In this document: positions 6,597-63,370 of the stretch, piece after piece | Layout: each line of letters starts with the position of its first letter | Position numbering within the stretch: the first letter of the stretch is position 1 | Assembly: GCA_035610835.1 (NCBI GenBank) | Contig: CM069443.1 | Coordinates: 58,297,266 to 58,361,265 of the forward strand | Source: Ophiura sarsii | Lineage: Eukaryota > Echinodermata > Ophiuroidea > Amphilepidida > Ophiuridae | Direction: 5' to 3' | DNA: 64,000 bases | Translations under genes and position numbers: made by a program | Notes under the pieces: generated by a model | Told to the model about the DNA's origin: nothing | What the model saw: only the letters and a program-made list of their open reading frames with translations | Database searches by the model: none

Positions 6597-7736
6597 TGCG
6601 CGAACTCATCTATAGGATGAGTTGTGTGGAGCGCAATAATTGATAATTTTAGTGCGATAAAATTAAAATCAATCAATACTGAAGTTTATGTAGCGCTAAA
6701 ACCAAGGAACTTGTACTTAAAGCACATATACGGACATCAAAACACGTAAAGAAAACTATACTGTCCATAGGCACGTTCAAAACAATAACATTTCCAAAAG
6801 TCGTTTAAATGTTGATGGAATTAGCGTTTCTGATAATATGTTCCAACAGTTTGCTGATCGAACTCATGTCGCATTTCCACATTATCTACAGTGCAACAGA
6901 CCATAAATGCAATAAATATCAAACTCACTATAATGACCAGAAAAACACCACTTTTCTTTTTAAATAAAGTCAAGTTTGGTGTCACATGATATAGAAGCCG
7001 TACCGTAAATATTTATAAAAATAACTTTCGTAAAATAACATCATTTGCGTATTATTTGCATATTTAATTCGCATCAAGTCCAAAACACATTTTAATTTAT
7101 AACTAGAGATGTGTATACCCTGGTAAACTGGAAATCAGTTATGTTGTGCATATCCCTAGTTCTGATACTTTTGTCAAAGCAAAATTAAAATAAAATCTTT
7201 GTATTTATTTATTTATTAGAATAATTTGCATAATTAAGAACCGATAATTGAGAATTTATTTGAAGATAACCAAAACTTTAATATTGGCTTGTGAGCTATC
7301 AAATTAGAGCTTAAGACATAAACAACAAAATGGTCAAGGCGCTTTTAGTGATTTTGTTTTCAGTTTTTAGTTATTGGTATTTAAGCAGTGTGTATACATT
7401 CTGTACACACTCTTAGCTTTAGTGTATGCAAACAAATGGTTCACCAGTCAGGGAACATGCATTTGAATTTCCCGCGTTAGCAGAACATTATGTTAAACCT
7501 GTGCAGTGAAGCATGGTTATACACAAGAGGCCAGTGTATGGATTTCTATACCAGTCCCCTATAATGTGCTTGTTTACATCCAATACAGGTCTATGCATAA
7601 CAAATTGATATTTATTGCATTTATGGTCTGTTGCACTGTAGTGCTCGGGGAAAAAATACTCAGAAAAAGACAATTTAAAAGACAATTTAATTTACTACAG
7701 GTAAAAAGAAATAAAAATGTAATAGTTTGTAAAATA
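6597..7736. other. No gene recognised
   Basis: AT-rich sequence between the fold-back element and the tRNA gene. It has TATTTATTTATTTATT-type simple sequence at about 7200 and short ORFs without recognisable domains. Confidence 0.5.
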
Positions 7737-7808
7737 GCCTCCACTGAGATTTGAACTCAGGACCCCTGGTTTACAAGACCAGTGCTCTAACCACTGAGCT
7801 ATGGAGGC
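7737..7808 (-). tRNA. tRNA-Thr (anticodon UGU)
   Basis: The minus strand reads as a 72-nt canonical tRNA. The acceptor stem is GCCTCCA/TGGAGGC. The D arm contains box A (TAGCTCAGTGG). The anticodon stem-loop is CTGGT-CTTGTAA-ACCAG with TGT at positions 34-36. The T arm is CTGAG-TTCAAAT-CTCAG and contains box B. No intron. A T4 stretch a few bases downstream on the minus strand (about 7731-7734) can serve as a Pol III terminator. All stems pair fully, so it looks functional. It supplies the decoder for ACA (and wobble) threonine codons. A second copy 1.5 kb away is disrupted. Confidence 0.97.
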
Positions 7809-9251
7809 GATACAAATATACTACTTACTTTATAAATTATATGATTGAGCACCATAATTATGATCATAATGATTGTATCAATTCATAAAAACAATCATAA
7901 TTATGAGATTCTAGGTGGGGCACTCAATTGTGGAAGCTACGGGAATGATCGGATAGTAACTCAAAAGATTCTATATATTAAAAAAAGAGGGTAAATATGG
8001 TGAGAATTCAAAACTTTTTCTTCTTCATATTGCGGGAGGCATTCAGTGAGTTAATTCAGTCACTGTTCAAAAGAGGCTCATTAAAGGCCCATTTTAGGAA
8101 GTGCCCACCCCCCCCCCCCCCAACCTCCCCCGTTAATTGCAAGCTGTTCTGTTACTAACTTTCACTTGCAGTTAAAATGCAACACCTCGAAATCTGACGC
8201 AAAAAAGGGACGAGACTGATTTGAATAAATTTGCATATAATAGGGTTACATTTGTCACATACCTTTTCTGTCCATGGATATTCTTGTTTTCATAATACAA
8301 CAACATTTTTCACATTCTAGTGTCACTCTGTTAGTAGGGAGCAACACCATAGTTTAGGATAGTAGCTGAGGTTCCGAGGGCTTCCTTAATTTATGATTGA
8401 ATGTTTTATGATTGCATGGATCACAGTCAATGTCTTATCATAATCTAGTGCAAGTACCTGTACAGATATTTGTATGCTTGTACCTGTATAGGAGCTCCAA
8501 CCAAAGACGTACACATACACAGTAGCAGAGTTTTGACATTTTCTAAAACATTTTGTGACATTTTAGAACTGTCGTCTGCAGCAATGCAAGTATAACGTAC
8601 AAAGGATATTACTGTGTCCAATTATTAAAACCCATATACAAATGACACATTCCCCAGATATATTTTCGAATCAAAATCTTGTTCCTATTGACTGATTCGT
8701 ATCAAATCAGAATTTTTTTTTAACGAACATAATCCACGATACAACCACAATAGTCTATCACACACAAACAATGATTTGAAGTTGATTAGGGGTTGTATCG
8801 CTTTGTAATTTTGAGGATTCTTTTTAATGCATAATTGGCCGATGTGTGTACCAAAATATTTATTCACATGGCCAACTGTAGAGGACGCTCTTCTTCTTTT
8901 TCTTCTTCAGTTCTTCCAGTTATCATGGTTATGTTCAGCAGTAAAAGATCGACGAATTGAGACAATATTTAACAAAAATATATACTGAGGCTAGACTATG
9001 GACGTCTTCTAAGTCTTATTAATTAATAACGAAAATACTAAGATTTAACTATACTTTGTTCTTCTGTTTTCATAATAGGACAGCAAAGGAAGATGGCGAT
9101 ATATAAATTGCGTTGAGAACTTTTGACTAAAATATATGTTAAAAACACGACCATGTTTATATTAAATCAGCATTCAAACCCTTAATATTTGCAAATGTTG
9201 TCGTTGAAACATGGACAAATTCAAACAAATTCGAAAAAGTTTGAAAAAGTA
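7809..9251. other. No gene recognised; repeat fragments
   Basis: AT-rich spacer between the two tRNA-Thr loci. Contains a poly-C run at about 8108-8122 and a fragment of the TTAACACTTTCC MITE (ACATTTTGTGACATTTTAGA, about 8548-8590). No coding exon recognised. Confidence 0.5.
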
Positions 9252-9304
9252 GCCTCCACTGAGATTTGAACTCAGGACCCCTGGTTTACAAGACCAGTGC
9301 TCTA
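9252..9304 (-). pseudogene. tRNA-Thr(UGU), 3' part of a gene split by a transposon
   Basis: Identical to nucleotides 20-72 of the intact tRNA-Thr at 7737-7808: part of the D arm, the complete TGT anticodon arm, variable loop, T arm and acceptor 3' strand. The match stops abruptly after GTGCTCTA, where foreign sequence begins. The missing 5' part is at 12054-12076. The two pieces share TCTA and together make exactly 72 nt. A T5 terminator lies just downstream on the minus strand. The gene cannot produce a tRNA in this arrangement. Confidence 0.95.
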
Positions 9305-10474
9305 CACAAGTGTTACACAAGGGAAAAAATGGAAAAAATGGCTAGCGCCCTCTTGACTGGAATCGCGAACCGGAAAATGACTGTGGCCACGCCTCCTGAA
9401 TATAAGCTGCAGTATCAACGCCGCCTAGTGACGCTATACGGCATTGCTTCGCCTGCCTCATTGTAATATTTAGTTATAATACCAGAAGATGTAGTCTATT
9501 GTCGATGAAAACGCTATATTTGAATGGATCATATGTTCCAAAATGTGGAGATATTAGAGAAATAGCCCATCAGATATCACTATCTATAGGATTGTAAGAT
9601 AAAAGAACAAATGGGCAAGTCCGGATAGCTTATCCCATGGTGGTGAGATGTTTTAAAATCTATGAATCATGGACTTATCAGACTGATAAGTTCATGTATG
9701 AATCAAGTACGGGTAAAATTCAAAGCTTATTTTCTCGATGATTTACGCTCACACCATATTTATTTTTGGCGTTCCGAACTTTCTTATATATTATATTTAT
9801 ATTTTATTCTCATTTGAAAACAACCCGTGTAATACAACGTCTAATTTCTTGACATTTCGAACTACTAAACTGTGTTCACCAAAACTATAAGTAAACAAAT
9901 AGTCAAGCGAGGTTATATCCCTTTCAAATATCGCGCGTCAATTCCATGAATAACCTGAATGGACTGTAATAACGATGAATGACATATGATTGATTTCTTT
10001 TGATTCACTTTATACCTGAGTCTGCAGTGCCCATCAAAATCACCTATGGTGCAATGCAATGCAAGGCCACGGGTCAATCTCTACTATTGATTGAGATAAT
10101 GATATGAATACTAGTAGGCCTATTGAGATAAGTCATTGATGTCTGACCGTGCAATCGATTTAGGGATTGTAATTTAGTGAAGCATCTATATATCAAGCAG
10201 GAATTAACGTTTTTGTTGGGTTCACCGAGTAACATTTGAATTGCATAACGTCTTGCTTTGTGATAACATGTTCTCGTGCACTTGATTGAACGCGAAAATT
10301 TGAATTGCATTCAACAAAATGTGTACAAACGAAATATTTGCTCTAGAATTGATAATTCTATAAATAATTTATTATTCATGTAAAGCATAGAAATCATCAC
10401 AACCAAGTGTTGAAAATATCCTGGGAGTTGAATGATAAATTATATTTGGGTGTAAAAAGCTGATGACATCACAA

Positions 10475-30986: not shown

Positions 30987-33071
30987 TTGTGCACCATGGC
31001 TGCTACACATCGGGCCCCCAAGCAGTGGTCCCTTAGTAAGACTGAATCAGTAAGCTCCTTCGAAAACTGGAAGCATAATTTGCAGTACTGCTTGTCACTT
31101 GATCCTGGCTTTGCAACCTTTCTGGTTGATGATTTCAAATGGGGTAAAAAGACAAAGGCAACTCCGCTACGTGGTTTTACAGATGATGGTGAACAAATCC
31201 CTGAGGCTAAAAGACTAACCGCCCAACAGAAGACCACCATGCTAGAACTCATGCTCGGCCAGATCGCCAATTATTGTCCAATCATATCCCGCAACACGAT
31301 CGTTAGAAATTCAACCTGTATGAATGATATTTGGCAAGGTATTCGCCTCCACTACGGATTCCAAACCACGGGGGGGCATTTCCTGGACTTTTCATCTCTA
31401 CGTCTAGAACTCAATGAACGTCCTGAGGATTTATTTCAACGCATCATGGCGTTCGTTGAGGACAGCCTCCTCTTGCAGGGTGGGGGTATTACCCATCATG
31501 GTGAAGAGGTCACAGAGGACGAAGAACTCTCCCCAACCCTGGAGAATCTAGTTGTCGTGACCTGGCTTCGTCTGATCCATGTAGACCTACCACGTCTTGT
31601 TAAACAGCGATATGGTACCGAGCTACGATCTAGGACATTGGCTTCCATCAAACCTGAAGTTTCACAGGCCCTTGATTCACTGTTGGATGAGATAAATTCC
31701 TCCTCGGACACCCGTGCTATGCGAACCTTCACACCGCGTTCACAATTTCCACGAAAAATTGTAGGAAAAGGTCCATCTGCAAGACCCCGGCCGAACAAAT
31801 CATCCCCGCTATGCAAACAGGTAGGACGTACCGACATCCAACATTTTCTCAGCGAATGCCCTCACCTGCCAGAGCAAGACCGCAAATACATTGCACGTGC
31901 ACGCCAGGTATCCAACATCTTTGATGAACCCGATACGGATGATGATTCTCCAAATCTTGCCTGTGCCCTTGTTGAGGAACACACAGATGACGTTCAGGTT
32001 TCACATGCTCCTACTGCCCTACGTGTACAGACTCGTCAGTCCCCATACCTGGACACATTTATGGACCATCATACAGTCCGTGTTACCATTGATTGCGGCG
32101 CAACAGGTAACCTAATGCGTGAAACAACAGCCCAGACCCTTGGTGTAAAGATCCGTAAGAGTTCGCAATCTACTCACCAAGCGGATGGTCATTCCCCTCT
32201 TGATGTGGTTGGAGAAACCTCCTTTACTCTTACACGCGATGGCTTCAATTTCCCGTTTGAAGGACTTGTTGTGAAAAGCCTAGACGTGGACATTCTTGGA
32301 GGAACCCCCTTTATGGAGCTTAACGATGTTGCCGTCCGTCCTTCAAAGCGACAGATAATCTTGTGTGATGGTAAGATCTACACATATGGATCACCGCAAA
32401 GTACTCGTGACCATCATACTGTGCGTCGCGCTCACGTGCTTCGTGCCCCACCCCACAACACTACTGTATGGCCAGGAGAATACATTGAAGTGGATCTCCC
32501 AACAGAGATTGCAGAGTCTGACTCAACCTTCGCGTTAGAACCGCGCACAGATTCTCGTGTGGCAAAGACTCTTCAACCAGATCAGTTATGGCCAAGCCCA
32601 GGCCTCATTCGCAGTGTAGCTGGCAAGGTTCGGATCCCCAATCTCACCAATGAGCCTTTGGTTCTTCGACGTCAAGAACAATTCGGCCAAGTCAGTGCTG
32701 TATACTCCCCCAAGCCATGTGTTGAGCCCACAGACTCCCGTGTTGGCGCAATGCGTTGTGACTCGGAATCTCGCTCCAGTGTGTCATACTCCACATCTAT
32801 CTCATTAGACCCAGACCAGACGCTCACTCCGGAAAACCAATCCAAATTTCGTGCACTTCATGAGGAATTTGATGATGTCTTCAATCCAACTTTTCCAGGA
32901 TACAATGGCGCTGCCGGACCTTTTAAGGCTGTTGTCAATATGGGTCCAGTCCAACCACCACAGCGAAAAGGTAGACTACCACAATATGCCCAGAATAAAC
33001 TCCAGGAATTGCAACACAAATTCGACGACCTTGAGAAACTTGGGAGTCTTTGCTCGTCCAGAAGATATTGA
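30987..33071 (+). pseudogene. Ty3/gypsy-type gag-protease (broken gag-pol, part 1)
   Basis: A 694-codon frame. Residues about 10-250 form a gag-like region (SFENWKHNLQYCL, QKTTMLELMLGQIANYCP, FLDFSSLRLELNERPEDLFQ). At about 275-295 a Cys/His motif (CKQVGRTDIQHFLSEC) resembles the gag zinc-binding stretch. A retropepsin motif VTIDCGATGNLM at about residue 369 has DCG in place of the usual DSG/DTG. The frame ends in a stop just after an extra A near 33044 shifts it away from the reverse-transcriptase frame. In related elements gag, protease and RT read as one polyprotein, so this looks like inactivating decay, not programmed frameshifting. An M two codons further in (MAATHR) is an alternative start. 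Confidence 0.85.
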
Positions 33072-34329
33072 CGTTAATGTTGAATACCTGAATCCATCAT
33101 TCTTGGTCAAAAAATCCAATGGTGGTTTTCGCCTAGTGACAGCATTTGCAGATGTTGGACGGTATAGTAAACCACAACCTTCACTTATGCCTGACGTAGA
33201 TTCCACCTTACGTAAGATCGCCAAGTGGAAACACCTTATTGCCACTGACCTGACCAGCGCATTTTATCAGATCCCTCTTTCGCGACAATCTATGAAATAC
33301 TGTGGCGTAGCTACTCCCTTTCGTGGCATTCGTGTATACACTAGATCTGCCATGGGGATGCCTGGATCTGAAACGGCACTGGAAGAACTCATGTGCCGTG
33401 TGCTTGGAGATCTCCTGGAGAAAGGTGTTGTTGCAAAGTTGGCGGATGACTTATACTGCGGTGGCGATACCGTAGATGAGCTTCTACATAATTGGAGGTC
33501 TGTTCTACACGCTTTAGACAAATGTAATCTTCGCCTCTCAGCACCTAAGACTGTAATCTGTCCAGGAAGCACTGTCATCTTAGGCTGGATTTGGTCAAAT
33601 GGCACTCTTCAAGCTAGCCCCCACCGTATTGCAACTCTTTCTAGTTGTGCTCCACCAGAAAGGGTTGGCGGAATGAGATCTTTCATCGGCGCTTACAAGG
33701 TATTAGCCCGTGTCATCCCTGGTTGCGCGTCATTTTTGGCTCCATTGGATGATGTTGCAGCAGGCCGACAAACACAAGACAAGATCACATGGTCTGACAC
33801 TCTCCGAGCAGCTTTCCAAACTGCACAAGCTGCCTTAACGTCAACCCGCACTATCACGCTCCCGAGGCCAGAGGATCAGTTGTGGATTGTTACCGATGGC
33901 TCTGTCAAAAAGCACAGTATTGGATCAACATTGTACATAACCCGGAAAGGAAAACCTCATCTCGCTGGGTTTTATAGTGCTAAATTACGCGGTCGTCAAC
34001 CCACATGGTTACCATGCGAAGTAGAAGCACTCTCTATTTCTGCATCCACCAAGTACTTTAGTCCATTCATCATACAATCCAAACATCATGCATGCATACT
34101 CACTGATAGCAAACCATGTGTGCAGGCATTTGAAAAGCTTTGCCGTGGGGAATTCTCAGCAAGCCCCCGCGTATCCACGTTCCTGTCTACGATTAGCCGT
34201 TACCAAGCTTCCGTTCGTCATCTCGCCCGTCAAATCGATGGCATCGCAAAATCTAATTTTCTTTACCGTCTCAGTCCGGATTTCAGTTACGTGGAGAGAA
34301 CGATTATTGTTTGTAGGTCGGGCCCGTAA
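33044..34329 (+). pseudogene. Ty3/gypsy-type reverse transcriptase-RNase H (part 2)
   Basis: After the frameshift the pol frame continues: [19 protein letters not shown], then [15 protein letters not shown] (RT motif with catalytic D), [13 protein letters not shown] and [12 protein letters not shown] (the catalytic DD box, ADD in place of the more usual V/IDD). RNase H follows with [13 protein letters not shown], a PCEVEAL segment and [11 protein letters not shown]. Similarity ends at about 34235 (QIDGIAKSN); the downstream sequence is unrelated. Integrase and 3' LTR are absent, so the element is 3'-truncated, and a palindromic MITE (34339) sits just beyond. Confidence 0.87.
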
Positions 34330-37899: not shown

Positions 37900-38230
37900 G
37901 GACTTGAAATCATCTAAAAAAACATGATTGTCATTCATGGAGAATTACGAAATTACGATCACCGTAATTTCAGAAGTGGACAGCAGGATATACTTGTATT
38001 ATCCACCAGCACACCACCGATGAATCTCCGCCGGAAGGCCAAGTCTTCGCCAACCAAGCCTGAATTGGGGACTCCAGGACGTCAGACTATTAGAAGTATT
38101 GTGTGTGATGTATTACTTTGTTGCCGTTTTGTACATTCTTCGAGTACAGAGGAAAATGAGAGTGAGAACAGAAGCCGAGTTCTAAATAGCAGCCATTCTG
38201 GGAGTGACTTCACGAACGGGTGTCTACTAA

Positions 38231-38390
38231 CCTAAGACCTAAGACCTAAGACCTAAGACCCAAAACCTAAGACCCAAAAACTAAGACCCAAAACCTAAGA
38301 CCCAAAAACTAAGACCCAAAACCTAAGACCCAAAACCTAAGACCCAAAAACTAAGACCCAAAACCTAAGACCCAAAAACTAAGACCCCCT
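38231..38390 (+). repeat. Outer short tandem repeats of the fold-back element, left
   Basis: CCTAAGA heptamers followed by alternating CCTAAGACCCAAAA and ACTAAGACCCAAAA units (14-15 bp). The mirrored array is at about 44430-44636 (GGTCTTAGGTTTTG). Superficially telomere-like but enclosed by target duplications. Confidence 0.9.
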
Positions 38391-41300
38391 CCCAAATGTC
38401 CTAAAAATCAGTTTTAAATACACGAGGATAGTTGATAAGTTGTTTAGAGAGGATGACGGATCATTTGAATCCATTTTGGCGCCAAAAATCCAAGGGTCTT
38501 AGGTTAGTAGTTGAGAGGGGGGTAAACTACTTACCTAAGACCCCCTCCCAAATGTCCTAAAAATCAGTTTTATATACACGAGGATAGTTGATAAGTTGTT
38601 TGGAGAGGATGACGGATCATTTGAATCCATTTTGGCGCCAAAAATCCAAGGGTCTTAGGTTAGTAGTTGAGAGGGGGGTAAACTACTAACCTAAGACCCC
38701 CTCCCAAATGTCCTAAAAATCAGTTTTATATACACGAGGATAGTTGATAAGTTGTTTAGAGAGGATGACGGATCATTTGAATCCATTTTGGCGCCAAAAA
38801 TCCAAGGGTCTTAGGTTAGTAGTTGAGAGGGGGGTAAACTACTAACCTAAGACCCCCTCCCAAATGTCCTAAAAATCAGTTTTATATACACGAGGATAGT
38901 TGATAAGTTGTTTAGAGAGGATGACGGATCATTTGAATCCATTTTGGCGCCAAAAATCCAAGGGTCTTAGGTTAGTAGTTGAGAGGGGGGTAAATTACTA
39001 ACCTAAGACCCCCTCCCAAATGTCCTAAAAATCAGTTTTATATACACGAGGATAGTTGATAAGTTGTTTGGAGAGGATGACGGATCATTTGAATCCATTT
39101 TGGCGCCAAAAATCCAAGGGTCTTAGGTTAGTAGTTGAGAGGGGGGTAAACTACTAACCTAAGACCCCCTCCCAAATGTCCTAAAAATCAGTTTTATATA
39201 CACGAGGATAGTTGATAAGTTGTTTAGAGAGGATGACGGATCATTTGAATCCATTTTGGCGCCAAAAATCCAAGGGTCTTAGGTTAGTAGTTGAGAGGGG
39301 GGTAAACTACTAACCTAAGACCCCCTCCCAAATGTCCTAAAAATCAGTTTTATATACACGAGGATAGTTGATAAGTTGTTTGGAGAGGATGACGGATCAT
39401 TTGAATCCATTTTGGCGCCAAAAATCCAAGGGTCTTAGGTTAGTAGTTGAGAGGGGGGTAAACTACTAACCTAAGACCCCCTCCCAAATGTCCTAAAAAT
39501 CAGTTTTATATACACGAGGATAGTTGATAAGTTGTTTAGAGAGGATGACGGATCATTTGAATCCATTTTGGCGCCAAAAATCCAAGGGTCTTAGGTTAGT
39601 AGTTGAGAGGGGGGTAAACTACTAACCTAAGACCCCCTCCCAAATGTCCTAAAAATCAGTTTTATATACACGAGGATAGTTGATAAGTTGTTTAGAGAGG
39701 ATGACGGATCATTTGAATCCATTTTGGCGCCAAAAATCCAAGGGTCTTAGGTTAGTAGTTGAGAGGGGGGTAAATTACTAACCTAAGACCCCCTCCCAAA
39801 TGTCCTAAAAATCAGTTTTATATACACGAGGATAGTTGATAAGTTGTTTGGAGAGGATGACGGATCATTTGAATCCATTTTGGCGCCAAAAATCCAAGGG
39901 TCTTAGGTTAGTAGTTGAGAGGGGGGTAAACTACTAACCTAAGACCCCCTCCCAAATGTCCTAAAAATCAGTTTTATATACACGAGGATAGTTGATAAGT
40001 TGTTTAGAGAGGATGACGGATCATTTGAATCCATTTTGGCGCCAAAAATCCAAGGGTCTTAGGTTAGTAGTTGAGAGGGGGGTAAACTACTAACCTAAGA
40101 CCCCCTCCCAAATGTCCTAAAAATCAGTTTTATATACACGAGGATAGTTGATAAGTTGTTTGGAGAGGATGACGGATCATTTGAATCCATTTTGGCGCCA
40201 AAAATCCAAGGGTCTTAGGTTAGTAGTTGAGAGGGGGGTAAACTACTAACCTAAGACCCCCTCCCAAATGTCCTAAAATTCAGTTTTATATACACGAGGA
40301 TAGTTGATAAGTTGTTTAGAGAGGATGACGGATCATTTGAATCCATTTTGGCGCCAAAAATCCAAGGGTCTTAGGTTAGTAGTTGAGAGGGGGGTAAACT
40401 ACTAACCTAAGACCCCCTCCCAAATGTCCCAAAAATCAGTTTTATATACACGAGGATAGTTGATAAGTTGTTTGGAGAGGATGACGGATCATTTGAATCC
40501 ATTTTGGCGCCAAAAATCCAAGGGTCTTAGGTTAGTAGTTGAGAGGGGGGTAAACTACTAACCTAAGACCCCCTCCCAAATGTCCTAAAAATCAGTTTTA
40601 TATACACGAGGATAGTTGATAAGTTGTTTAGAGAGGATGACGGATCATTTGAATCCATTTTGGCCCCCAAAAATCCAAGGGTCTTAGGTTAGTAGTTGAG
40701 AGGGGGGTAAACTACTAACCTAAGACCCCCTCCCAAATGTCCTAAAAATCAGTTTTATATACACGAGGATAGTTGATAAGTTGTTTGGAGAGGATGACGG
40801 ATCATTTGAATCCATTTTGGCGCCAAAAATCCAAGGGTCTTAGGTTAGTAGTTAAGAGGGGGGTAAACTACTAACCTAAGACCCCCTCCCAAATGTCCTA
40901 AAAATCAGTTTTATATACACGAGGATAGTTGATAAGTTGTTTAGAGAGGATGACGGATCATTTGAATCCATTTTGGCGCCAAAAATCCAAGGGTCTTAGG
41001 TTAGTAGTTGAGAGGGGGGTAAACTACTAACCTAAGACCCCCTCCCAAATGTCCTAAAAATCAGTTTTATACACACGAGGATAGTTGATAAGTTGTTTGC
41101 AGAGGATGACGGATCATTTGAAACCATTTTGGCGCCAAAAATCCAAGGGTCTTAGGTTAGTAGTTGAGAGGGGGGTAAACTACTAACCTAAGACCCCCTC
41201 TCAAATGACCTAAAAATCAGTTTTATATACACGAGGATAGTTGATAAGTTGTTTAGAGAGGATGACGGATCATTTGAATCCATTTTGGCGCCAGAAATCC

Positions 41301-41620
41301 AAGGGTCTTAGGTTAGTAGTTGAGAGGGGGGTAAACTATTAACCTAAGACCCCCTCCCAAATGTCCTAAAAATCAGTTTTATATACACGAGGATAGTTGA
41401 TAAGTTTTTTGGAGAGGATGACGGATCATTTGAATCCATTTTGGCGCCAAAAATCCAAGGGTCTTAGGTTAGTAGTTAAGAGGGGGTTGGGGGGGGGGGG
41501 GGGGGTAAACTACTAACCTAAGACCCCCTCTCAAATGTCCTAAAAATCAGTTTTAGATACACGAGGATAGTTGATAAGTTGTTTAGAGGGGATAAGAGAT
41601 CATTTGAATCCAGTTAATTG
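38391..41620 (+). repeat. 156-bp satellite array, left arm (about 20 copies)
   Basis: Units begin CCTAAGACCCCCTCCCAAAT and contain TCAGTTTTATATACACGAGG, GAGGATGACGGATCATTTG, ATTTTGGCGCCAAAAATCC and a closing GGGTCTTAGGTTAGTAGTTG. Identity between units is about 97-99%. Each unit's ends are mutually inverted (CTACTAACCTAAGACC / GGTCTTAGGTTAGTAG), so every monomer can itself form a hairpin. Units mostly alternate between GTTTAGAGAGG and GTTTGGAGAGG variants. A TAAATTACTA variant recurs exactly five units (780 bp) apart. Confidence 0.95.
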
Positions 41621-43324
41621 TTTGAATTCAATTTGCAGCATGCTATTCAATTGTTTATTTGCTGTCCATGATAGAATTTTTTGGGTTTTTTTACTCATCA
41701 GGGGGTGAATTTCTTTTTTTGGCCTGCATAGAGGGTGAATTTTTTTTCTTCCGAAAACTTCCTACGGGGGGTAGGAAGTTTTCGGAAAATCTAATGGTGC
41801 GTCCCTTACCACAACATTATACTATAGCCAAATTCTAAAATTCCAAACTCTTTTTGATCGGGCAAAAAAAGTCATTGAAATTTCAGGCAAAAAATACAAG
41901 TAATAATAAATATTCATATTACTAATTAATATTCATTACAAAACAGATTATCATAATTTATTTATCTTGTAACAAGTACAAAACTATATTCAATATATTT
42001 ACCCCGAATGGGCGCCCATACAACGTCATTCTGTCGAGTGGAAATCATCGTCTTCCGATGATTACTATAGTCCAATTAATATTGAACAAAAAACACACAC
42101 ACAGCACAAAAAGATGATCACGCCCGAAATTATCACGCTTAGGCCACAATTTCTTTTCTTTTTTTGATTGTCCATAGATCACTTTCAGAAACTGGGTAGG
42201 TCGGTCGGGAAAAGGTGTCTTTTAAATTTTTATAAATCACATTCAAAAGATGCATAATTAACTTTAAAATAGGTACTGATATATTTGAATGGGTTATTTA
42301 ATTAGGTCATTCATGTTTTAAAACAGTTTAAAAGACTAAAGAAACTGTGAAAATTATATTTTAGCATATTTCCAGGAAGCAAAATTCTGGAAGAAAAAAA
42401 GAAAAAAAATCTGGAATTTCCAGAATTAGGGTCGATATTCATTTGTCAAAGCAAAAAAGAAGAAGTTTTTCTCAGTTTTCAAAATTAGGGTCAGTCGGAA
42501 GAGGACAATCAAACAACTTTTTTTTACGCAATGTACTGAACTTCAAGGTGTTCGTTCAATTATAAATCCGACTATAATAAATACTGCCAACATGTTACAG
42601 TCAACACTTCTCTTCCCCTATTTAATGATTATTTACTGAATTTAGGTATTTTTTCAAATGTTAGAAATAATTCAAAACTGCATGTATGACTGTGTCTTGA
42701 TCGTCGTTTAAAATTATTTCAACAAACCAAGATAATATTATACTTAGGGGTAATATAGGTGACTCGAGTAGTCAGGTAGGGGTCAATCGATGCTGTTTAG
42801 GGGACCAATTAAAGCTATGAAAATTAAAAAGTTTTAAAAAAAAGTTTTAAAAAAAGTTTAAAAAAACAACTTTTTTAAAATAAAGAAAAGAAGGCAGCGG
42901 CTAAAACAGAGGCGGGCGGGGACGGGAAACATGTAACTTTTTTTTACTAGGCCTAAAGCAGCAATGTCGCAAACTTATGACAAAGAGTTCTAAACTGTCA
43001 AAGTGATGTGTTTTTAAAATTAAAATTAAAAAATCCGGCCTACCGACCCCTATCATTTAAGGACCCTCAAAGGACAAACAAACAATTATTTTTTTTGCCT
43101 AACTAAACAAGGTTAATATGTCGAATTTCAAAAAGCCGATAAGAGCCTTTAGAAGCTAGTTCGACAATTCAGAACAGAGTGCATTCTGGGGGGAAAAAAC
43201 GATCGCGAGAATTCGGGATAAACATGGCCATATCGGGCTAATACACAGAGACCTTACAAATTCTTAGCTTTTCGTGAATTTATTAAAGCAGTGTTAGTCG
43301 ATTATAGCTTGTGTATCTAAAACT
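41621..43324. other. Unique centre of the fold-back element
   Basis: About 1.7 kb of AT-rich sequence with no ORF of useful length on either strand. Contains inverted CTTCCTACGGGGGGTAGGAAG (about 41758-41778) and A/T homopolymers. No recognisable gene or RNA. Confidence 0.6.
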
Positions 43325-44400
43325 GATTTTTAGGACATTTGGGAGGGGGTAGTTTACCCCCCTCTCAACTACTAACCTAAGACCCTTGGATTGTTGGCGC
43401 CAAAATGGATTAAAATGATCCGTCATCCTCTCTAAATAACTTATCCACTATCCTCGTGTATATAAAACTGATTTTTAGGACATTTGGAAGGGGATCTTAG
43501 GTTAGTAGTTTACCCCCTTCTCAACTACTAACCTAAGACCCTTGGATTTTTGGCGCCAAAATGGATTCAAATGATCTCTCATCCTCTCTAAACAACTTAT
43601 CAACTATCCTCGTGTATATAAAACTGATTTTTAGGACATTTGGGAGGGGGTCTTAGGTTAGTAGTTTACCCCCTCTCAACTACTAACCTAAGACCCTTGG
43701 ATTTTTGGCGCCAAAATGGATTCAAATGATCCGTCATCCTCTCTAAACAACTTATCAACTATCCTCGTGTATATAAAACTGATTTTTAGGTCATTTGGGA
43801 GGGGTTCTTAGGTTAGTAGTTTACCCCCCTCTTAACTACTAACCTAAGACCCTTGGATTTTTGGCGCCAAAATGGATTCAAATGATCCGTCATCCTCTCC
43901 AAACAACTTATCAACTATCCTCGTGTATATAAAACTGATTTTTAGGACATTTGGGAGGGGGTCTTAGATTAGTAGTTTACCCCCCTCTCAACTACTAACC
44001 TAAGACCCTTGGATTTTTGGCGCCAAAATGGATTCAAATGATCCGTCATCCTCTCTAAACAACTTATCAACTATCCTCGTGTATATAAAACTGATTTTTA
44101 GGACATTTGGGAGGGGGTCTTAGGTTAGTAGTTTACCCCCCTCTCAACTACTAACCTAAGACCCTTGGATTTTTGGCGCCAAAATGGATTCAAATGATCC
44201 GTCATCCTCTCCAAACAACTTATCAACTATCCTCGTGTATATAAAACTGATTTTTAGGACATTTGGGAGGGGGTCTTAGGTTAGTAGTTTACCCCCCTCT
44301 CAACTACTAACCTAAGACCCTTGGATTTTTGGCGCCAAAATGGATTCAAATGATCCGTCATCCTCTCTAAACAACTTATCAACTATCCTCGTGTATTTAA
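43325..44400 (-). repeat. 156-bp satellite array, right arm (about 7 inverted copies)
   Basis: The same 156-bp unit as 38391-41620 in opposite orientation. The innermost units are the most diverged (for example a deletion near 43390), the outer ones nearly identical to the left arm. Confidence 0.95.
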
Positions 44401-44654
44401 AACTGATTTTTAGGACATTTGGGAGGGGGTCTTAGTTTTTGGGTCTTAGGTTTTGGGTCTTAGTTTTTGGGTCTTAGGTTTTGGGTCTTAGGTTTTGGGT
44501 CTTAGTTTTTGGGTCTTAGGTTTTGGGTCTTAGGTTTTGGGTCTTAGGTCTTAGGTCTTAGGTCTTAGGTTTTGGGTCTTAGGTTTTGGGTCTTAGGTTT
44601 TGGGTCTTAGGTCTTAGGTCTTAGGTCTTAGGTTAGTAGACACCCTTCACGAAC

Positions 44655-45690
44655 ACCGTAAATTACAGATTTCTACGGTCACCGTAATTCACGAAAAATT
44701 ACTATAACCGTAATTTATGAAAAATTAGTATAACCGTAATTTTCCATCATTGGGATACAGGAATTCTCTATGGACTATTACAGAGGTTTATTCTTTCATC
44801 AAAGTAGAGATGCTTCTCTCCCCTTATGAGGCCGCTACTGAGAATATAACCTAGTCTAAGAGAATTCACTCTCCACTTTATATTCATCAAAATTACGACA
44901 ACCGTAATTTGTAGATTTTTTACGATCACCGTAATTTACGAAAAATTACTATAACCGTAATTTATGAAAAATCACTATAACCGTAATTTTCCATCATTGG
45001 GATACAGGAATTCCCTATGGACTATAGAGGTTTATTCTTTCATCAAAGTAGAGATGCTTCTCTCTCCTTATGAGGCCGCTACTGAGAATATAACCTAGTC
45101 TAAGAGAATTCACTCTCCACTTTATATTCATCAAAATTACGACAACCGTCATTTGTAGATTTTTACGAATACCGTAATTTACGAAAAATTACTATAACCG
45201 TAATTTATGAAAAATTACTATAACCGTAATTTTCCATCATTGGGATACAGGAATTCCCTACGGACTATAGAGGTTTATTCTTTCATCAAAGTAGAGATGC
45301 TTCTCTCTCCTTATGAGGCCGCTACTGAGAATATAACCTAGTCTAAGAGAATTCACTCTCCACTTTATATTCATCAAAATTACGACAACCGTAATTTGTA
45401 GATTTTTACAATCACCGTAATTTATGAAAAATTACTATAACCGTAATTTATGAAAAATTACTATAATCGTAATTTTCCATCATTGGGATACAGGAATTCT
45501 CTATGGACTATTATAGAGGTTTATTCTTTCATCAAAGTAGAGATGCTTCTCTCTCCTTATGAGGCCGCTACTGAGAATATAACCTAGTCTAAGAGAATTC
45601 ACTCTCAACTTTGTATGCTCAGTATATCACCAGAATTACGACCACCGTAATTTTCCTGATTATTACGACAACCGTAATTACGGATAAATG
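44655..45690 (+). repeat. ~244-bp tandem repeat with ACCGTAATT palindromes, 4 copies
   Basis: Units marked by TTGGGATACAGGAATTC at 44750, 44997, 45240 and 45483. Each contains several inverted-complement pairs of AATTACGGT/ACCGTAATT, TTTCATCAAAGTAGAGATGC and CCTTATGAGGCCGCTACTGA. A single ACGATCACCGTAATTTCAG stretch at about 37950-37970, left of the fold-back element, belongs to the same family, so the 6.4-kb element landed inside this repeat. Confidence 0.88.
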
Positions 45691-45972
45691 ACGACGCTAC
45701 CGACCTGTTTTGATACCAGGGAATGATATTGGAACCATCGAACGACGACGCTACCGAACTGTTTTGATACCAGAGAATGATATGGGAACCATCGAACGAC
45801 GACGCTACCGAACTGTTTTGATACCAGAGAATGATATGGGAACCATCGAACGACGACGCTACCGAACTGTTTTGATACCAGAGAATGATATGGGAACCAT
45901 CGAACGACGACGCTACCGAACTGTTTTGATACCAGAGAATGATATGGGAACCATCGAACGACGACGCTACCA
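45690..45972 (+). repeat. 54-bp tandem repeat, 5 copies
   Basis: Unit ACGACGCTACCGAACTGTTT then TGATACCAGAGAATGATATG and GGAACCATCGA. Because 54 is divisible by three, both strands show long repetitive ORFs (IPENDMGTIERRRYRTVL on plus, SSFDGSHIILWYQNSSVA on minus). These are repeat artefacts, not evidence of a gene. Confidence 0.92.
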
Positions 45973-46243
45973 CTTAAGAATAATGATTTATAATGTGAAT
46001 ATTGTTGAAATGATGTTATAAATGTTTCTTTGTCACGAATAAACTGGATCTCTGTAAAGAAAGGAATAACAACGATTTTTGTCTGTTACGTATGTACATC
46101 TACGCATATCTCGTATGTTGGGTTCATTTAGCTCCAAAGGCATCGGACGAAAGACTTAATTTCGTTACACAATCTTAACTGAAAAAGGTGTCATTTAGAA
46201 GCATTGATAAAGCTCCTTTTGTCGGTATCGGGTATTAAGATCT

Positions 46244-47918
46244 GGGTCATTCCGTGTCAAATCAACCAAAATTCTGAAAATTGGTACGGGTCACCTCTCA
46301 GATTTGGCTGAAATTCATTTCTAATATACATCTATAGGTATAATGAACACATGCAAAATATAAAATTCCAAATCCAAGTCGTTTCGGAATTATGGCCCTT
46401 CAAAGTTGGGAGGTTACCGCCCTTTCAAGTGACGCGATTCGCGTCATTGAATATATTGTGTTTATAATTGTCTATTAGAGGACCTTTGGAATAAGATGCA
46501 AAGCTGGAAATTGGTACTTAGGGTGACTGTAACCCAAATAACCCAGAAATGGCCTCAAAACAAGTGCATCTTATCCCCCTTTCTTTTTACAGGCAGCGCA
46601 AAACACCAATTTAGTCCGTCGAACAAATTAATTTCCATTTTAAGACCCCCCACAATCATGGTTGATAGTCACAAAAAAGCTTCATATTGCATATTTGCAT
46701 TGTACAGTCACATGTTGTTACCCACAAGCAATGATAGAGCCCCGACTCATTTAATAAATAGTTGGCAAGCGTCTAAAGTTGGCTCCAGACAGAAAATATC
46801 GAAAAAACACCGACATTCTACGTGACCTTTGACCTTTGTAACATATAATCTCCAACTTTATACTCACACCAAATGTTAATACATGTCTAACCTTTCATAT
46901 GAATCAAAAAGTGTTTTGGAGACTCTTCTCCTTCATGGTCAGGCAACTCTTTCAAATTTGGGGTATTTTGACCTTTTTCTGTATGTCATGACTGCTGAAT
47001 TCGACAACCCATTTCATATTTTGACTAAGTATTTTTGGAAAAAATGAATGGGTCATTTATTTTCCCCATATCTTTCATGGTGTCACAATTCTGTCACAGA
47101 AATTTCTTGAGACAATTTTTCTTAAAAATGTTGCTAAAAATACTTAGTCATAATTATAAATGGGTTGCCGAATTCAGCAGTCTTGACACATTGAAAATGG
47201 GAAAAATACCTCAATTTAAAAGAGTTGCCTGACCATGAAGGAGAAGAGTCTCCAAAACACTTTTTGATTCATATGAAAGGTTAGATATGTATTAACATTT
47301 GGTGTGAGTATAAAGTTGGAGATTATATGTTACAAAGGTCAAAGGTCATGGAGAATGTTGGTGTTTTTTCGATATTTTCTGTCTGGAGCCAACTTTAGAC
47401 GCTTGCCAACTATTTATTAAATGAGTCAGGGCTCTATCATTGCTTGTGGGTAACAACATGTGACTGTACAATACAAATATGCAATATGAAGCTTTTTTAT
47501 GACTATCAACCATGATTGTGGGGGGTCTTAAAATGGAAATTAATTTGTTCGACGGACTAAATTGGTGTTTTGAGCTGGCTGTCGAGAGAAAGGGGGATAA
47601 GATACACTTGTTTTGAGGCCATTTCTGGGTCATTTGGGTTACAGTCACCCTAAGTACCAATTTCCAGCTTTGCATCTTATTCCAAAGGTCCTCTAATAGA
47701 CAATTATAAACACAATATATTCAATGACGCGAATCGCGTCACTTGAAAGGGCGATAACCTCCCAACTTTGAAGGGCCATAATTCCGAAACGACTTGGATT
47801 TGGAATTTTATATTTTGCATGTGTTCATTATACCTATAGATGTATATTAGAAATGAATTTCAGCCAAATCTGAGAGGTGACCCGTACCACCATTGGTTGA
47901 TTTGACACGGAATGACCC
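46244..47918. mobile_element. 1,675-bp near-perfect palindromic element (TSD ATCT)
   Basis: Left end GGGTCATTCCGTGTCAAATC; the right end is the same inverted. ATCT precedes and follows the element (46240-46243, 47919-47922). Arms of about 810 bp are roughly 95% identical, with about 50 bp between them near 47081. Mirror-image 109-codon ORFs (46496-46825 plus, 47346-47675 minus) start MQSWKLVLRVTVTQ; they have no recognised domain and probably reflect the arm sequence only. Non-autonomous; superfamily unknown. Confidence 0.92.
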
Positions 47919-47922
47919 ATCT

Positions 47923-48659
47923 TAACTTCTTTGAGAGAAAACTGTACACTTTTGATGCAACCAGTCCTCCAAATAAGCATGTTTGAACCAGGACCTTTAC
48001 TTTACTGGGCAAAATTTGGAAAACAGTAGTTGCCAAAATTGGCAACTCGGCAACAATTGGGTAAAATCCTCCAGAAACTGCTTATTTGGAGCCTTGCGGC
48101 GTCTGTACACACGAGCATGCTATTCGGAGCCTTGGCAATTGTGTGGAGTGTCACTAAAAGTATCACCCTCAAAAGCCATTCAATATGATCCGACCATATA
48201 TTTATTAGTCTTGAATCAAAGTACAAAAATAATCAAACTATAAACATAATTGTCCATAAAACCAATTGTATTTCTTTATTAGACATTGTGAAAATGATAC
48301 TTGGAATCAGTTTTTAGCAGGATGCATTGATAACAAGATGTGTAGTGTTTCCATGAATAAGATGGTGGTATTTAATGCTGTTTCACAAAGTTAATACCAT
48401 TTTGTATGGTGCAGAAAAGCGGATTTGTAATTGAAGTCAGAAACTTTCAAATCAGCTATCACGTGAGATATCACAATCGTGCAGCAAATATCTAATTGGA
48501 GTTTAGTGTCAAGGTCTTAAATGAGATAGCTGTCAGTCAAGTTCAATGTTATTTATGTTACTGATCCATCATGGAGCTAAGAACCCCATGATTGAATATA
48601 AACCACATGGCAGCACTTCTTGTTAGGAACACAAAACCTATGTCTTGGTCATGGATAGC
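47923..48659. other. RPL10A downstream region
   Basis: AT-rich sequence between the palindromic element and the RPL10A stop codon. It should include the short RPL10A 3' UTR and poly(A) site on the minus strand, but I could not place a convincing signal. Confidence 0.4.
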
Positions 48660-61370: not shown

Positions 61371-63370
61371 CCCATGTGTGCAGCAGAAAGCCTTAAGGTA
61401 CTATGCATCATCAGGGACCTCACAAACCCCCAGTGGCAACAGTGTAAGATAACAGTGAATCTACCGGCCAGTACAACAGCCAGGGAGTTATGCGAGGAGG
61501 TGGCAAGACAGGCTAACTATGAGGCCGGAACATTCTCTTTAGTGTGGCAACGAGGGGGACAACATGCTGGAGATAATGTGAGTACAGGGCTCGAAATAGA
61601 AGGGGTGAGGGGGCCCAAATTCTCATTTCTACAAATTTTATTCAGTGACGTAATATTTATAATGAAGGTCCGACTGTTCCATGCCAGTCATGACACCTAT
61701 CAGTATTCAGTGTTATACAAACATCCAAGATCCTGAGCCTGCACATATTAACCCTAACCCCTCATGGGGTGTGTAGCCATAAAGCTAACAGGGAAGAAAC
61801 ATGGAACAAATAAGAACAGACAACTCCCGGGATTCAAACGAGGGGCACCACGGCCGGAGTCCAGGTTATCGTGCATCATGCTACGGGTGTCCCGCTCCCC
61901 AAATTAAATCTTCGGAGCCTATGTACCTTTGCAAGATTGCGCAATGAGACGAGACTGGGGAATGGGGCCCACCGGCAAGTTGCTTCTGTTGGATTTGGCA
62001 GGGTTATGGTTAATGGAAAGTTATTCACATTTGAACGGAAGCATTCAATGATTCATGCAATAATTGTTCGCTTATGTTGTCTTTACATACAAAATAATAA
62101 CAGTAAAATATCACCGTATTGCACACATCTTCGCTCAAAGTTCCCCCAGCGTTCTTCTATTTACTTAGCTTCGCCAAGTCACATCACTTTCATCTACCTT
62201 GATAAAGGCCTATGGTCGAAATATCAGAAGTGATAATAAATCTTGAGATTTGAACCCAATTACTTATTCTCTGGACACTAATATCACTGTATTGGTCTAT
62301 GTCTCATAACAATATCATTATTCAATAGGACATGTCGCATTTTTCTTGCTCAAAACGTTGATTGGCAGAATTGAGATGAAAGAAAATTAAAAGCCAAGCC
62401 TGAATTACCCATTAATCTGATTTAGCCAGATACAAACTAAATGTTGATTTTTACATTCGTGTAAGGTGTTGATAAATGATCTGGGAGAACAAAATCTACT
62501 GGACGTGGGCATGCTGACCGACAACAAGAAGAACATGTTTGAACTTGGCGATAAAGACGGAGAACAACCTGTACCGATTGAGGTAGGATTTGAGTGAATC
62601 AGCGTTGAATCCAGTGTTCTCAAATACAATGTATAAAATAAATCAACACAAAGATGTTTCAATTTGGCCGAACTGGACCAATTGTGCAAATTAAAAAATC
62701 ACCTTAACCAATGAGAGCCAGTATGGTGCAGTAGATAGAGCACTGGTGTCAAGATACAACAGTTGTGGGTTTTAAAAAATCACCTTAACCAATGAGAGCC
62801 AGTATGGTGCAGTAGATAGAGCACTGGTGTCAAGATACAACAGTTGTGGGTTTAAGTCCTGCAAGGTCAACTTGTTGTGCTCTTTGAGTAAGGCACTTTT
62901 CCTCAATTACTCTCTCTCTCTATCCAGGTGTGTGCACTGGACTCTCAATACAAAGGTTATGGGTTCAAGTCCTGCAAGTTCAATATGTTTTGCTCTTGAG
63001 TAAGGCACTTTTCTTTAATGACTTTCTCTATTCAGGTATATTTAAGTTAACCTCTGTGTTTATAAAAGGTGTGAGTTTGGTCCAATGGCTTTGAAAGAAA
63101 TTATGGGCTCCTGTGAACCCCGATTCAACTGTCTTTATCTTGACCATTACCGTAATAATACTCCAATTTCAATAATTTGTCAACTATTTATCTATCAGGC
63201 TGGTGCTACCGGTGTGACGGTGACACCTGACGACAACACCTCCACCAGTGCCGTCAACGATGAAGACTCCAGTCCCGTGATAGCCTCGCCAGTTGTTGAG
63301 AACAGCTCAACCTCAACAGAGTATGGCTATGGTATTTACTCATCGGCAGTCATCTCAAAATCTGACACAG
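61371..63370 (+). CDS. USP47: Ubiquitin carboxyl-terminal hydrolase 47, N-terminal exons (partial)
   Basis: USP47 is a cysteine-protease deubiquitinase (known substrates include DNA polymerase beta). Three exons join in frame with GT-AG sites. 61371-61577: MCAAESLKVLCIIRDLTN, KITVNLPASTTARELCEEVA, YEAGTFSLVW. 62466-62582: VLINDLGEQNLLDVGML, KKNMFELGDKDGEQPVPIE. 63199-63370: an acidic/serine linker, then EYGYGIYSSAVISKSDTG. These correspond to the vertebrate USP47 segment just before the catalytic domain (VLCII, LNLPAST, GTFDLVW, DKDGEQP, SYSYSSILNKSETG). The catalytic Cys/His boxes must lie beyond the right edge. Whether ATG at 61374 is a start or an internal Met is open; no upstream exon was found. 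Introns contain SINEs. Confidence 0.93.
61820..61900 (-). repeat. Possible tRNA-derived SINE in the USP47 intron
   Basis: The minus strand has TAGCATGATGCACG (box A-like) and CGTTTGAATCCCGGG (box B-like) about 50 nt apart, the layout of a tRNA-derived promoter. Stems do not fold as a proper tRNA. Confidence 0.35.
62693..63045 (+). repeat. tRNA-derived SINE cluster in the USP47 intron
   Basis: An 81-bp unit (AAAAAATCACCTTAACCAAT, GAGAGCCAGTATGGTGCAGT, AGATAGAGCACTGGTGTCAA) occurs in tandem at 62693 and 62774. The second copy continues through GGGTTTAAGTCCTGCAAGG (box B-like) into GAGTAAGGCACTTTTCCTCA and a CT-rich tail. A third, 5'-shortened copy (GTTCAAGTCCTGCAAG, GAGTAAGGCACTTTTC) follows from about 62930. 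Confidence 0.75.

Follow-up and report, generated by a model that had tools for sequence, protein, structure and literature searches.

The TU elements of the sea urchin Strongylocentrotus have heterogeneous middles and long inverted repeats, in which ~15-bp repeats make up an outer domain beside an inner one. Four other systems provide points of comparison for the locus reported here. In Tetris, a fold-back element of Drosophila virilis, long inverted arms combine an outer flanking domain with an inner domain of ~220-bp tandem repeats around a variable non-coding middle; the arm end and the repeat unit have a stretch in common, and target duplications measure 8-10 bp (PMC4079207). The cited sections of that report describe just three structurally complete copies, one with three or four left-arm repeats in two alleles, as well as longer arrays of up to 66 repeats, and contain the suggestion that larger arrays may disrupt transposition (PMC4079207). 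Tm1, a Mutator/Phantom family of root-knot nematodes with MITE-like members, joins 9-bp target duplications to composite ends of 13-15-bp (mostly 14-bp) tandem repeats, variable in number and unequal between ends (PMC3169594). In Galileo (P superfamily, Drosophila), the number of tandem repeats varies independently in each arm and the repeats contain secondary transposase-binding sites (PMC3573991, PMC3688188), while Rehavkus elements of animals have 9-bp duplications, inverted ends of 26-400 bp and a minisatellite near one end (PMC6446971).

How a satellite array begins and lengthens is seldom easy to follow, since old arrays have undergone homogenisation and offer no dated point of departure. 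We describe here, from an echinoderm, a family whose best reading is a non-autonomous fold-back DNA transposon resembling Tetris and Tm1, with arms that consist largely of satellite units, and we compare its copies as what appear to be natural replicates of satellite DNA evolution.

Structure of the element

The window, a stretch of 64,000 nucleotides from contig CM069443.1 of Ophiura sarsii, contains at 38218-44645 a single element of 6,428 bp whose termini are exact inverted repeats and whose 9-bp target duplication is perfect, as a first-pass annotation made from the letters alone had proposed. GGGTGTCTACTAACC stands at 38218 and an exact reverse complement of it ends at 44645, each occurring once only within the window; the element ends pair without gaps over 62 bp, and TTCACGAAC (9 bp) directly adjoins both, the match holding at 9 bp and failing at 10. 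The parts of the element are given below as coordinates, strand (a dot where none is assigned) and description.

38209..38217 (.): left target site duplication TTCACGAAC
38218..44645 (.): the fold-back element in full, 6,428 bp
38218..38239 (+): left 22-bp terminus GGGTGTCTACTAACCTAAGACC, near-invariant among copies read
38232..38387 (+): left outer domain of 7-bp (CTAAGAC) and 14-bp (CTAAGACCCAAAAC) repeats
38379..41612 (+): left satellite array of 156-bp units, 20 full and one partial
38681..38824 (+): example unit body flanked by a 19-bp perfect inverted repeat, with stems AACTACTAACCTAAGACCC at 38681-38699 and its reverse complement at 38806-38824
38862..40421 (+): 5-unit (780-bp) block duplicated in tandem, L04-L08 to L09-L13, with one difference
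41616..43307 (.): non-coding centre, homologous to the ~2.05-kb core of other copies
43349..44435 (-): right satellite array, 7 full units, with another partial unit beside the core
44427..44631 (-): right outer domain of 7/14-bp repeats
44624..44645 (-): right 22-bp terminus
44646..44654 (.): right target site duplication TTCACGAAC

Tandem Repeats Finder resolved the left side into a 14-bp array (38237-38387) and 20.6 units of 156 bp (38379-41612), and the right side into 7.0 inverted units (43349-44435) and a second 14-bp array (44427-44626), so that the short-repeat outer domain first noted is present on both sides. Counted unit by unit, 20 full units and one partial face seven full and one partial, close to the earlier estimate of about 20 against 7, although exact numbers per array depend on assembly. 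The arms are thus long, inverted and built of tandem repeats, as in fold-back or TIR-array elements, and their longest ungapped inverted pair spans 917 bp at 99% identity. The centre is non-coding, in agreement with the initial description: its longest stop-to-stop frame is 70 aa, and a Pfam scan of 109 window frames, which took in 10 centre frames (51-70 aa, two extending into the arms), recovered no transposase among the 17 families listed.

The 156-bp array constitutes the inner domain of the element. The first-pass annotation had set the 156-bp unit against the 15-bp TU repeats, and in this it chose the wrong domain, the counterpart of the TU repeat being the 14-bp outer domain. The likeness to TU elements is one of description and of an echinoderm host, with a TU duplication of 8 bp against 9 here. 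That to Tetris likewise concerns structure as described rather than sequence (its ends and TIR-220); relative to the cited sections on Tetris (PMC4079207), the present family differs in having arms of up to 53 units in copies whose target duplications are perfect, an outer domain that is an array in its own right (7/14 bp), and end units whose type depends on position from copy to copy. The cited parts of the Tm1 report describe no 156-bp satellite domain, and Tm1 differs further in having asymmetric 7-bp terminal motifs, where the present element has exact inverted repeats, and in including transposase-bearing members (PMC3169594). Galileo, in the portions cited, has 7-bp flanks, two or three repeats of ~210 bp (subfamily F) and a known transposase (PMC3573991, PMC3688188); the Rehavkus members tabulated have one ORF and arthropod and annelid hosts, and are likened here by description (PMC6446971).

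A dispersed family with independent target duplications

The 22-bp terminus occurs at 262 places in the same genome when one mismatch is allowed (142 forward and 120 reverse; control 0), and the copies bearing it bore out the proposal of a fold-back transposon family. We fetched 27 long copies; older ones are under-represented among them because the criterion of choice was resemblance to the left end of the element in the window. Both ends were seen in 19, of which 15 have perfect 9-bp duplications: 14 directly, all differing in sequence, and the fifteenth (C2:36197500) after an 8-bp extra at its left end was allowed for. Of the remaining four, two match at 8 of 9 bp and two (C1:16736240 and C15:7776267) show no duplication. 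Twelve short copies, comprising every pair of at most 2.4 kb among the 100 exact terminus places listed, include five with perfect 9-bp duplications, one with a perfect 10-bp repeat (L047), three matching at 8 of 9 bp and three without duplication. The shortest copy, of 130 bp, consists of the outer domain alone with AAAATTGAA on both sides; it may have lost its inside after insertion.

Two-ended copies extend from 130 bp to 14 kb, and arms in the family carry from 0 to at least 60 units; some members of this series from 0 units upward could be later deletions. Copies with 53, 43 and 42 units in one arm (partials counted) have perfect 9-bp duplications. In none of the 19 two-ended copies are the arms equal, the median arm ratio being 2.0. 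The cores of 12 copies diverge by 0.5 to 5.0%, with a longest frame of 99 aa. Solo termini also occur: by a count made by eye, 52 of the 100 listed exact places have no exact partner within 20 kb, the solo termini read being those within the 27 copies.

Further copies that share these termini, each with a separate duplication, stand at unrelated places, which rules out both chance and an assembly artefact as general accounts of the structure. That the inverted arms or the arm copy numbers in particular arose in assembly is scarcely credible: certain units measure 155 or 157 bp, as expected from homopolymer errors, and C14:8842200 and C6:49670400 each include 100 N, but the many loci with identical termini and independent duplications refute an artefact for the element itself, and misassembly at a single locus would not yield variants specific to one arm, duplicated blocks and end types tied to position.

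Transposase and superfamily

No transposase was found in the sequence read, in which 8 of the 27 long copies are represented by one end only. Pfam searches of 12 frames from the centres of six copies gave no transposase, and one centre (C13:39385900) yielded a retrotransposon-type aspartic protease; MULE-type DDE transposases were absent from the frames scanned, and 12 cores and 12 short copies contained no long frame. A copy with a 579-aa ORF (C8:31004198) was considered as an autonomous form and rejected, as its coding part lies inside its own 428-bp inverted ends, in a core that stops there, and has no clear Pfam match; the insert is apparently a separate nested element.

Target duplications of Mutator-like elements (MULE, including Phantom and Rehavkus) measure 8-11 bp in the sections cited (PMC6446971). 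Because those of the present family are 9 bp, within that range, assignment to the Mutator-like superfamily is the most likely and probably correct. A different superfamily with 8-9-bp duplications, such as Merlin-like or P/Galileo-like elements, is unlikely, although no transposase was found in the sequence read. Arms of this tandem-repeat kind also occur in Galileo (P superfamily), yet in the portions cited it is bounded by 7-bp sequences (PMC3573991, PMC3688188), whereas intact duplications here are of 9 bp (one of 10 bp). Tm1, as described in the cited parts of its report, unites 9-bp duplications with ~14-bp terminal tandem repeats under Mutator/Phantom (PMC3169594), which again argues for a Mutator-like affiliation.

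Position-specific ends and variable middles of the arrays

Units at the two ends of an array differ in kind from those between. The outermost unit, beside the outer domain, is of variant A in 30 of 42 arms, whereas 1 of 728 interior units is (Fisher p 4e-43), and the innermost is of variant G in 27 of 38 against 13 of 728 (p 3e-31), although these p values overstate the case because units are not independent. Restricted to two-ended copies, the proportions are 26/34 and 24/32. Unit positions were read by a pattern allowing three substitutions; arms of fewer than three units were excluded from this test, as were the final units of C19 and C9, which extend beyond the fetched stretch, those of other one-ended copies being kept. 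Units that could not be read (2 first, 4 last and 51 interior) were likewise excluded. In-register copying within the window copy, proposed for the end variants common to both of its arms, was rejected, as the same variants recur across copies.

Innermost runs of two to three units are found again in separate insertions, and unit variants frequent in short copies are almost missing from the middles of long arrays but reappear beside the core. Array middles differ among copies and contain block duplications whose length varies by arm (5, 10, 10, 11 and 13 units); the 5-unit block in the window and block repeats in several other arms support the original suggestion that the arms were remodelled by tandem expansion. 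Rare unit types are shared by 145 of 10,417 pairs within an arm, by 20 of 4,814 between arms of one copy and by 165 of 290,922 between copies. Collinearity beyond one unit is modest, with 9 of 886 pairs exceeding shuffles, and one-unit matches already score 68 (shuffle maximum 72) because an 11-bp deletion is counted as 11 variants; ordered runs common to both arms of one copy rose above shuffles in 0 of 17. The arrays thus look end-anchored, a new finding here: the comparison of copies suggests that both ends are fixed while middles grow and shrink.

The claim that satellite DNA travels with the transposon stands in part: end-typical units recur in insertions with different duplications, but transfer of whole arrays is not borne out, as the best 30 array matches listed between copies extend over 1-4 units, and those ranked highest lie at the core. 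These short matches, with the unlike block lengths of individual arms, also weigh against the alternative that arrays grew chiefly ahead of transposition, in a small number of source elements, and moved whole, copy differences being later losses. We regard this alternative as improbable, although the perfect duplications of the copies with 53, 43 and 42 units imply that long arrays accompany an intact mobile structure, and units typical of both array ends are common to different insertions.

Origin and spread of the satellite

Sixteen bp of the unit's 19-bp stem match the element terminus. Because the terminal motif is present in the unit in both orientations, the 156-bp unit probably derived from end sequence, and it could provide extra transposase sites. 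Among the unit's 19-column windows, one stem is the least variable and the other average; a joint test of stem conservation was weak (p 0.016 to 0.066).

Unit junctions number 2,056 genome-wide, 798 of them in copies read, with 1,404 forward and 652 reverse; among the 100 exact junctions listed, which all fall on C1 (1.4-47 Mb), six lie away from any listed exact terminus. A satellite that existed first as free arrays, pieces of which the transposon then captured, could account for the few unit clusters without a listed exact terminus (C1:38305370-38307032 and C1:40056753), and the strand skew could reflect long one-way arrays. Such capture is nevertheless very improbable: both orientations of the element's terminal motif occur within the unit, copies with the outer domain only or with 2-3 units and perfect duplications form a series from 0 units up, the other 94 listed junctions fall in arrays having a listed exact terminus, and the innermost unit type agrees with that of short copies.

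The explanation we favour as a whole, with a probability of roughly 0.8, is a fold-back element served by a transposase in trans, whose arrays grow in their middles after insertion while their ends are kept. It builds on direct observation of termini, duplications, family, size range, array differences, block duplications and position-specific end units. The element would move by cut-and-paste, with transposase supplied from an element not among the sequences found. The 22-bp terminus together with the short repeats of the outer domain probably suffices for mobility, because the 130-bp copy, which has nothing else, shows a perfect target duplication; the same copy suggests that the 156-bp units are dispensable. 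After insertion, copy number would shift mid-array and separately in each arm, through unequal exchange or slippage of unit blocks, with the outermost and core-proximal units retained. A more tentative extension, which we judge less likely than not, treats the copies as nurseries of satellite DNA: a single founder array, its ends fixed, would have been planted at many sites by transposition and undergone birth-and-death in the middle, copy by copy, up to 60 or more units with transposon ends kept, and some copies would lose their ends to become free satellite arrays.

The family offers, in effect, replicate experiments in array growth: many insertions, each marked by a duplication of its own and recent to judge from core divergence, share their kinds of end unit over the whole range of arm lengths, so that rates, block sizes and position effects can be read directly. 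It also allows a test of the idea, put forward in the cited part of the Tetris report, that larger arrays may disrupt transposition (PMC4079207).

Searches outside the genome

Exact scans with the 22-bp terminus and a 19-bp terminus found no match in prokaryote genome contigs, nor was any match obtained in plasmid and phage collections or, for the element's motif strings, in published paper texts. In viral contigs, scans for the terminus and for motifs yielded 0, 3 and 2 matches. These five loci contain one or two CTAAGACC motifs in a single orientation and, with up to three substitutions allowed, no unit junction or unit start; they were taken as chance. Two of them (L002 and L003, near-identical to each other) include a terminus-like match in one orientation only. 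Within the window, the best-matching named relative of a retrotransposon ORF comes from Lytechinus pictus, a sea urchin, at 73% identity.

Anatomy of the element

38218-44645, whole inverted structure of 6,428 bp

Both ends of this element start with GGGTGTCTACTAACC and pair ungapped over 62 bp, and a perfect 9-bp target duplication, TTCACGAAC, lies on each side, bearing out the exact inverted termini and duplication proposed in the first-pass annotation. Just inside the termini lies an outer domain of 7-bp (CTAAGAC) and 14-bp (CTAAGACCCAAAAC/A) repeats. We counted 20 full 156-bp units and one partial unit in the left arm and seven full and one partial in the right, in line with the roughly 20 facing seven first noted, and the centre is non-coding as described, its longest frame being 70 aa. 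BLAST revealed no further match to the unit repeat in the rest of the window; segments of the centre at 42580-42672 gave three matches of 41-82 bp (82-84%) between 57254 and 57870. The element adjoins the edge of a ACCGTAATTTACGAAAAATTACTATA-rich 243-bp tandem array (window 44655-45616; 3.9 copies at about 95%), which starts immediately after the right target duplication.

Family size and target duplications

In the 1.57-Gb genome to which the window belongs (748 contigs), a search with the 22-bp terminus, allowing one mismatch, retrieved 142 forward and 120 reverse places (control pattern, 0), and thereby established a fold-back family with the same termini elsewhere. The 301-bp left end has at least 439 genome matches (39 of 555 candidates scored). 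We read 27 long copies, including that of the window, and 12 short pairs. Both ends lie within the fetched stretch in 19 of the 27 long copies; 14 of these have a perfect 9-bp duplication, all 14 different, and a fifteenth (contig C2, position 36197500) has CGTTTCTTG on both sides if 8 additional bp at the left end are discounted. Two of the 19 match at eight of nine positions and two have no duplication. Among the short pairs, five have perfect 9-bp duplications, three match at eight of nine, three have none, and one (stretch L047) has a perfect 10-bp repeat. The smallest copy, 130 bp at C3:23716440, contains nothing but outer domain and is flanked by a perfect duplication; mobility may thus require no more than about 65 bp per end, and the satellite may be dispensable, although deletion after insertion would produce the same structure.

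With up to three mismatches, the junction between units is present genome-wide at 1,404 forward and 652 reverse places (control, 0), and 798 of these 2,056 junctions lie in the copies read (long copies, 494 + 280; short, 5 + 19). The strand skew is greater genome-wide than in the copies read (499 versus 299), and could reflect a few very long one-way arrays. The 100 exact junctions listed, all on contig C1 between 1.4 and 47 Mb, were compared by eye with the listed termini, which were exact matches only: 94 of these junctions sit in arrays that also have such a terminus, and the others comprise five at C1:38305370-38307032 and one at C1:40056753.

The 156-bp unit

A perfect 19-bp inverted repeat, formed by AACTACTAACCTAAGACCC and its complement, frames each consensus unit; 16 bp of this repeat (CTACTAACCTAAGACC) are identical to the element terminus, so that a unit carries one left-facing and one right-facing terminal motif. 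Folded as single-stranded DNA, one unit reaches -26.5 kcal/mol, a z of -4.9 relative to 200 shuffles. Across the 262 distinct 156-bp unit types in the copies read, no 19-column window varies less than one of the two stems, and the other stem shows average variability; a joint conservation test of both stems gave p values of 0.016 to 0.066, varying with the columns left out, a weak hint of a conserved, putative binding role. On average, units of a single arm differ by 1.7%, those in opposite arms of a copy also by 1.7%, and those of different copies by 1.9%; most unit sequence is therefore common to the whole family.

Array length and turnover

With partial units included, arms of the 27 long copies contain from 0 to 53 units; two other arms, which extend beyond the fetched stretch, contain at least 57 and at least 60. 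The marked inequality of arms first seen in the window proved general: none of the 19 two-ended copies has equal arms, and the unit count of the left arm does not correlate with that of the right (Spearman 0.15, p 0.53). Array ends are position-specific. An A at position 24 marks the outermost unit, beside the outer domain, in 30 of 42 readable arms versus one of 728 readable interior units, and a G variant marks the innermost unit, beside the core, in 27 of 38 versus 13 of 728 (26/34 and 24/32, respectively, in two-ended copies alone). Innermost runs of two to three units are shared between insertions and, by eye, sit on the same side of the core.

In unit order, nine of 886 arm pairs from different copies score above the highest of 600 order shuffles, by a measure that scores every deleted base separately, so that a single shared 145-bp unit already comes near the shuffle limit; the best 30 pairs listed share runs of one to four units, none of them a long run through array middles. 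No ordered sharing was found between arms of the same copy (0/17 exceed shuffles). Exact block repeats vary between arms, with a block of five units in the window left arm and lag peaks at 10 units (left arms of the C7 copy, 5/13, and C3:53045300, 8/32), 11 units (C19 left, 7/45) and 13 units (C8 left, 8/15), upholding the proposal that arms were remodelled by tandem expansion. Once the four commonest unit types are set aside, the two units of a pair are of identical type in 145 of 10,417 pairs from a single arm, in 20 of 4,814 pairs from opposite arms of a copy and in 165 of 290,922 pairs from different copies.

Three variants frequent in short copies (29/46, 27/40, 20/39) are rare in long-array middles (9/507, 1/522, 4/513), and return beside the core in the last unit (28/38, 1/11, 13/22) and next-to-last unit (6/37, 7/34, 2/39). 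In the simplest history, a small ancestral array would have come first, its end units still in place, and a newer unit type would have multiplied between them, independently in every arm of every copy. We infer that short copies carry the older unit type.

Core and coding content

The shared core is matched wholly or partly by 19 of 24 centre segments compared. Among twelve near-complete cores of 1.7-2.3 kb, pairwise differences range from 0.5 to 5.0%, with 36 of 66 pairs (nine copies) at 1.4% or less; the window core stands about 3-5% from the other eleven in alignment, its nearest relative being 97-98% identical by BLAST. The family looks young. In the brittle star Amphiura filiformis, a genome report describes a repeat burst, mostly of DNA transposons, peaking at 2% divergence (PMC11310086).

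The longest frame is 99 aa in the twelve cores and 72 aa in the 12 short copies; extra sequence in centres brings longer ones, which reach 579 aa in C8 and 397 aa in C13:39385900, and C1:16735700 has two above 110 aa. A Pfam scan covered twelve of the longer frames, from six copies (C8, C13:39385900, C14:21620200, C13:21876000, C7 and C12). It identified an aspartic protease of retrotransposon type in C13:39385900; no transposase emerged among the twelve frames, and for this latter reason we assign the element to no superfamily. Within a truncated core of the family, C8:31009415-31014043 (5716-10344 of joined stretches L040 and L045) is a nested 4.6-kb element with inverted ends of about 428 bp (92%) and frames of 579, 222, 174 and 127 aa without clear Pfam match.

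Relation to known elements

The anatomy and behaviour of the element match those of fold-back transposons with tandem-repeat arms. Tm1, a Mutator/Phantom family, shares the 9-bp duplication and end repeats of about 14 bp (PMC3169594); Tetris, a long inner repeat and a motif common to arm end and repeat (PMC4079207); Galileo, tandem-repeat fold-back arms (PMC3573991, PMC3688188); and Rehavkus, a 9-bp duplication with a minisatellite (PMC6446971). Earlier work has documented transposons whose inner repeats resemble satellites, as well as satellites that grew out of such elements (PMC9659126, PMC12628747, PMC4079207). Searches with motif strings, echinoderm and brittle-star fold-back satellites, and fold-back elements with satDNA found no earlier description of this family among the open-access papers listed, a scope that leaves subscription papers and Repbase outside. 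What looks new is the extent of the phenomenon: the two-tier arm, the graded copy sizes, 130 bp up to 14 kb, with duplications still intact, the presence of 40-53-unit arrays within intact copies, and the position-specific array ends with differing middles.

Other repeats in the window

Two tandem arrays about 1 kb apart (3169-4217 and 5410-6464), with related units of 165-175 and 172-188 bp in opposite orientation, in which the consensus CACGTGTCATTTTTATGCAAATTAGTGCCGCCA recurs as its complement, possibly form a second fold-back structure. A retrotransposon (30987-34326) has open aspartic protease and reverse transcriptase/RNase H frames, the best named relative of the second being from Lytechinus pictus (73% identity over 85%). 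A 54-bp tandem array (45690-45971; 5.2 copies, 98%) can be read on its minus strand as an open repeat peptide. An inverted repeat pair of about 260 bp (95%), 1.2 kb apart, occupies 46235-46500, an arm truncated by the query boundary, and 47671-47925. A perfect 81-bp tandem duplication lies at 62691-62853.
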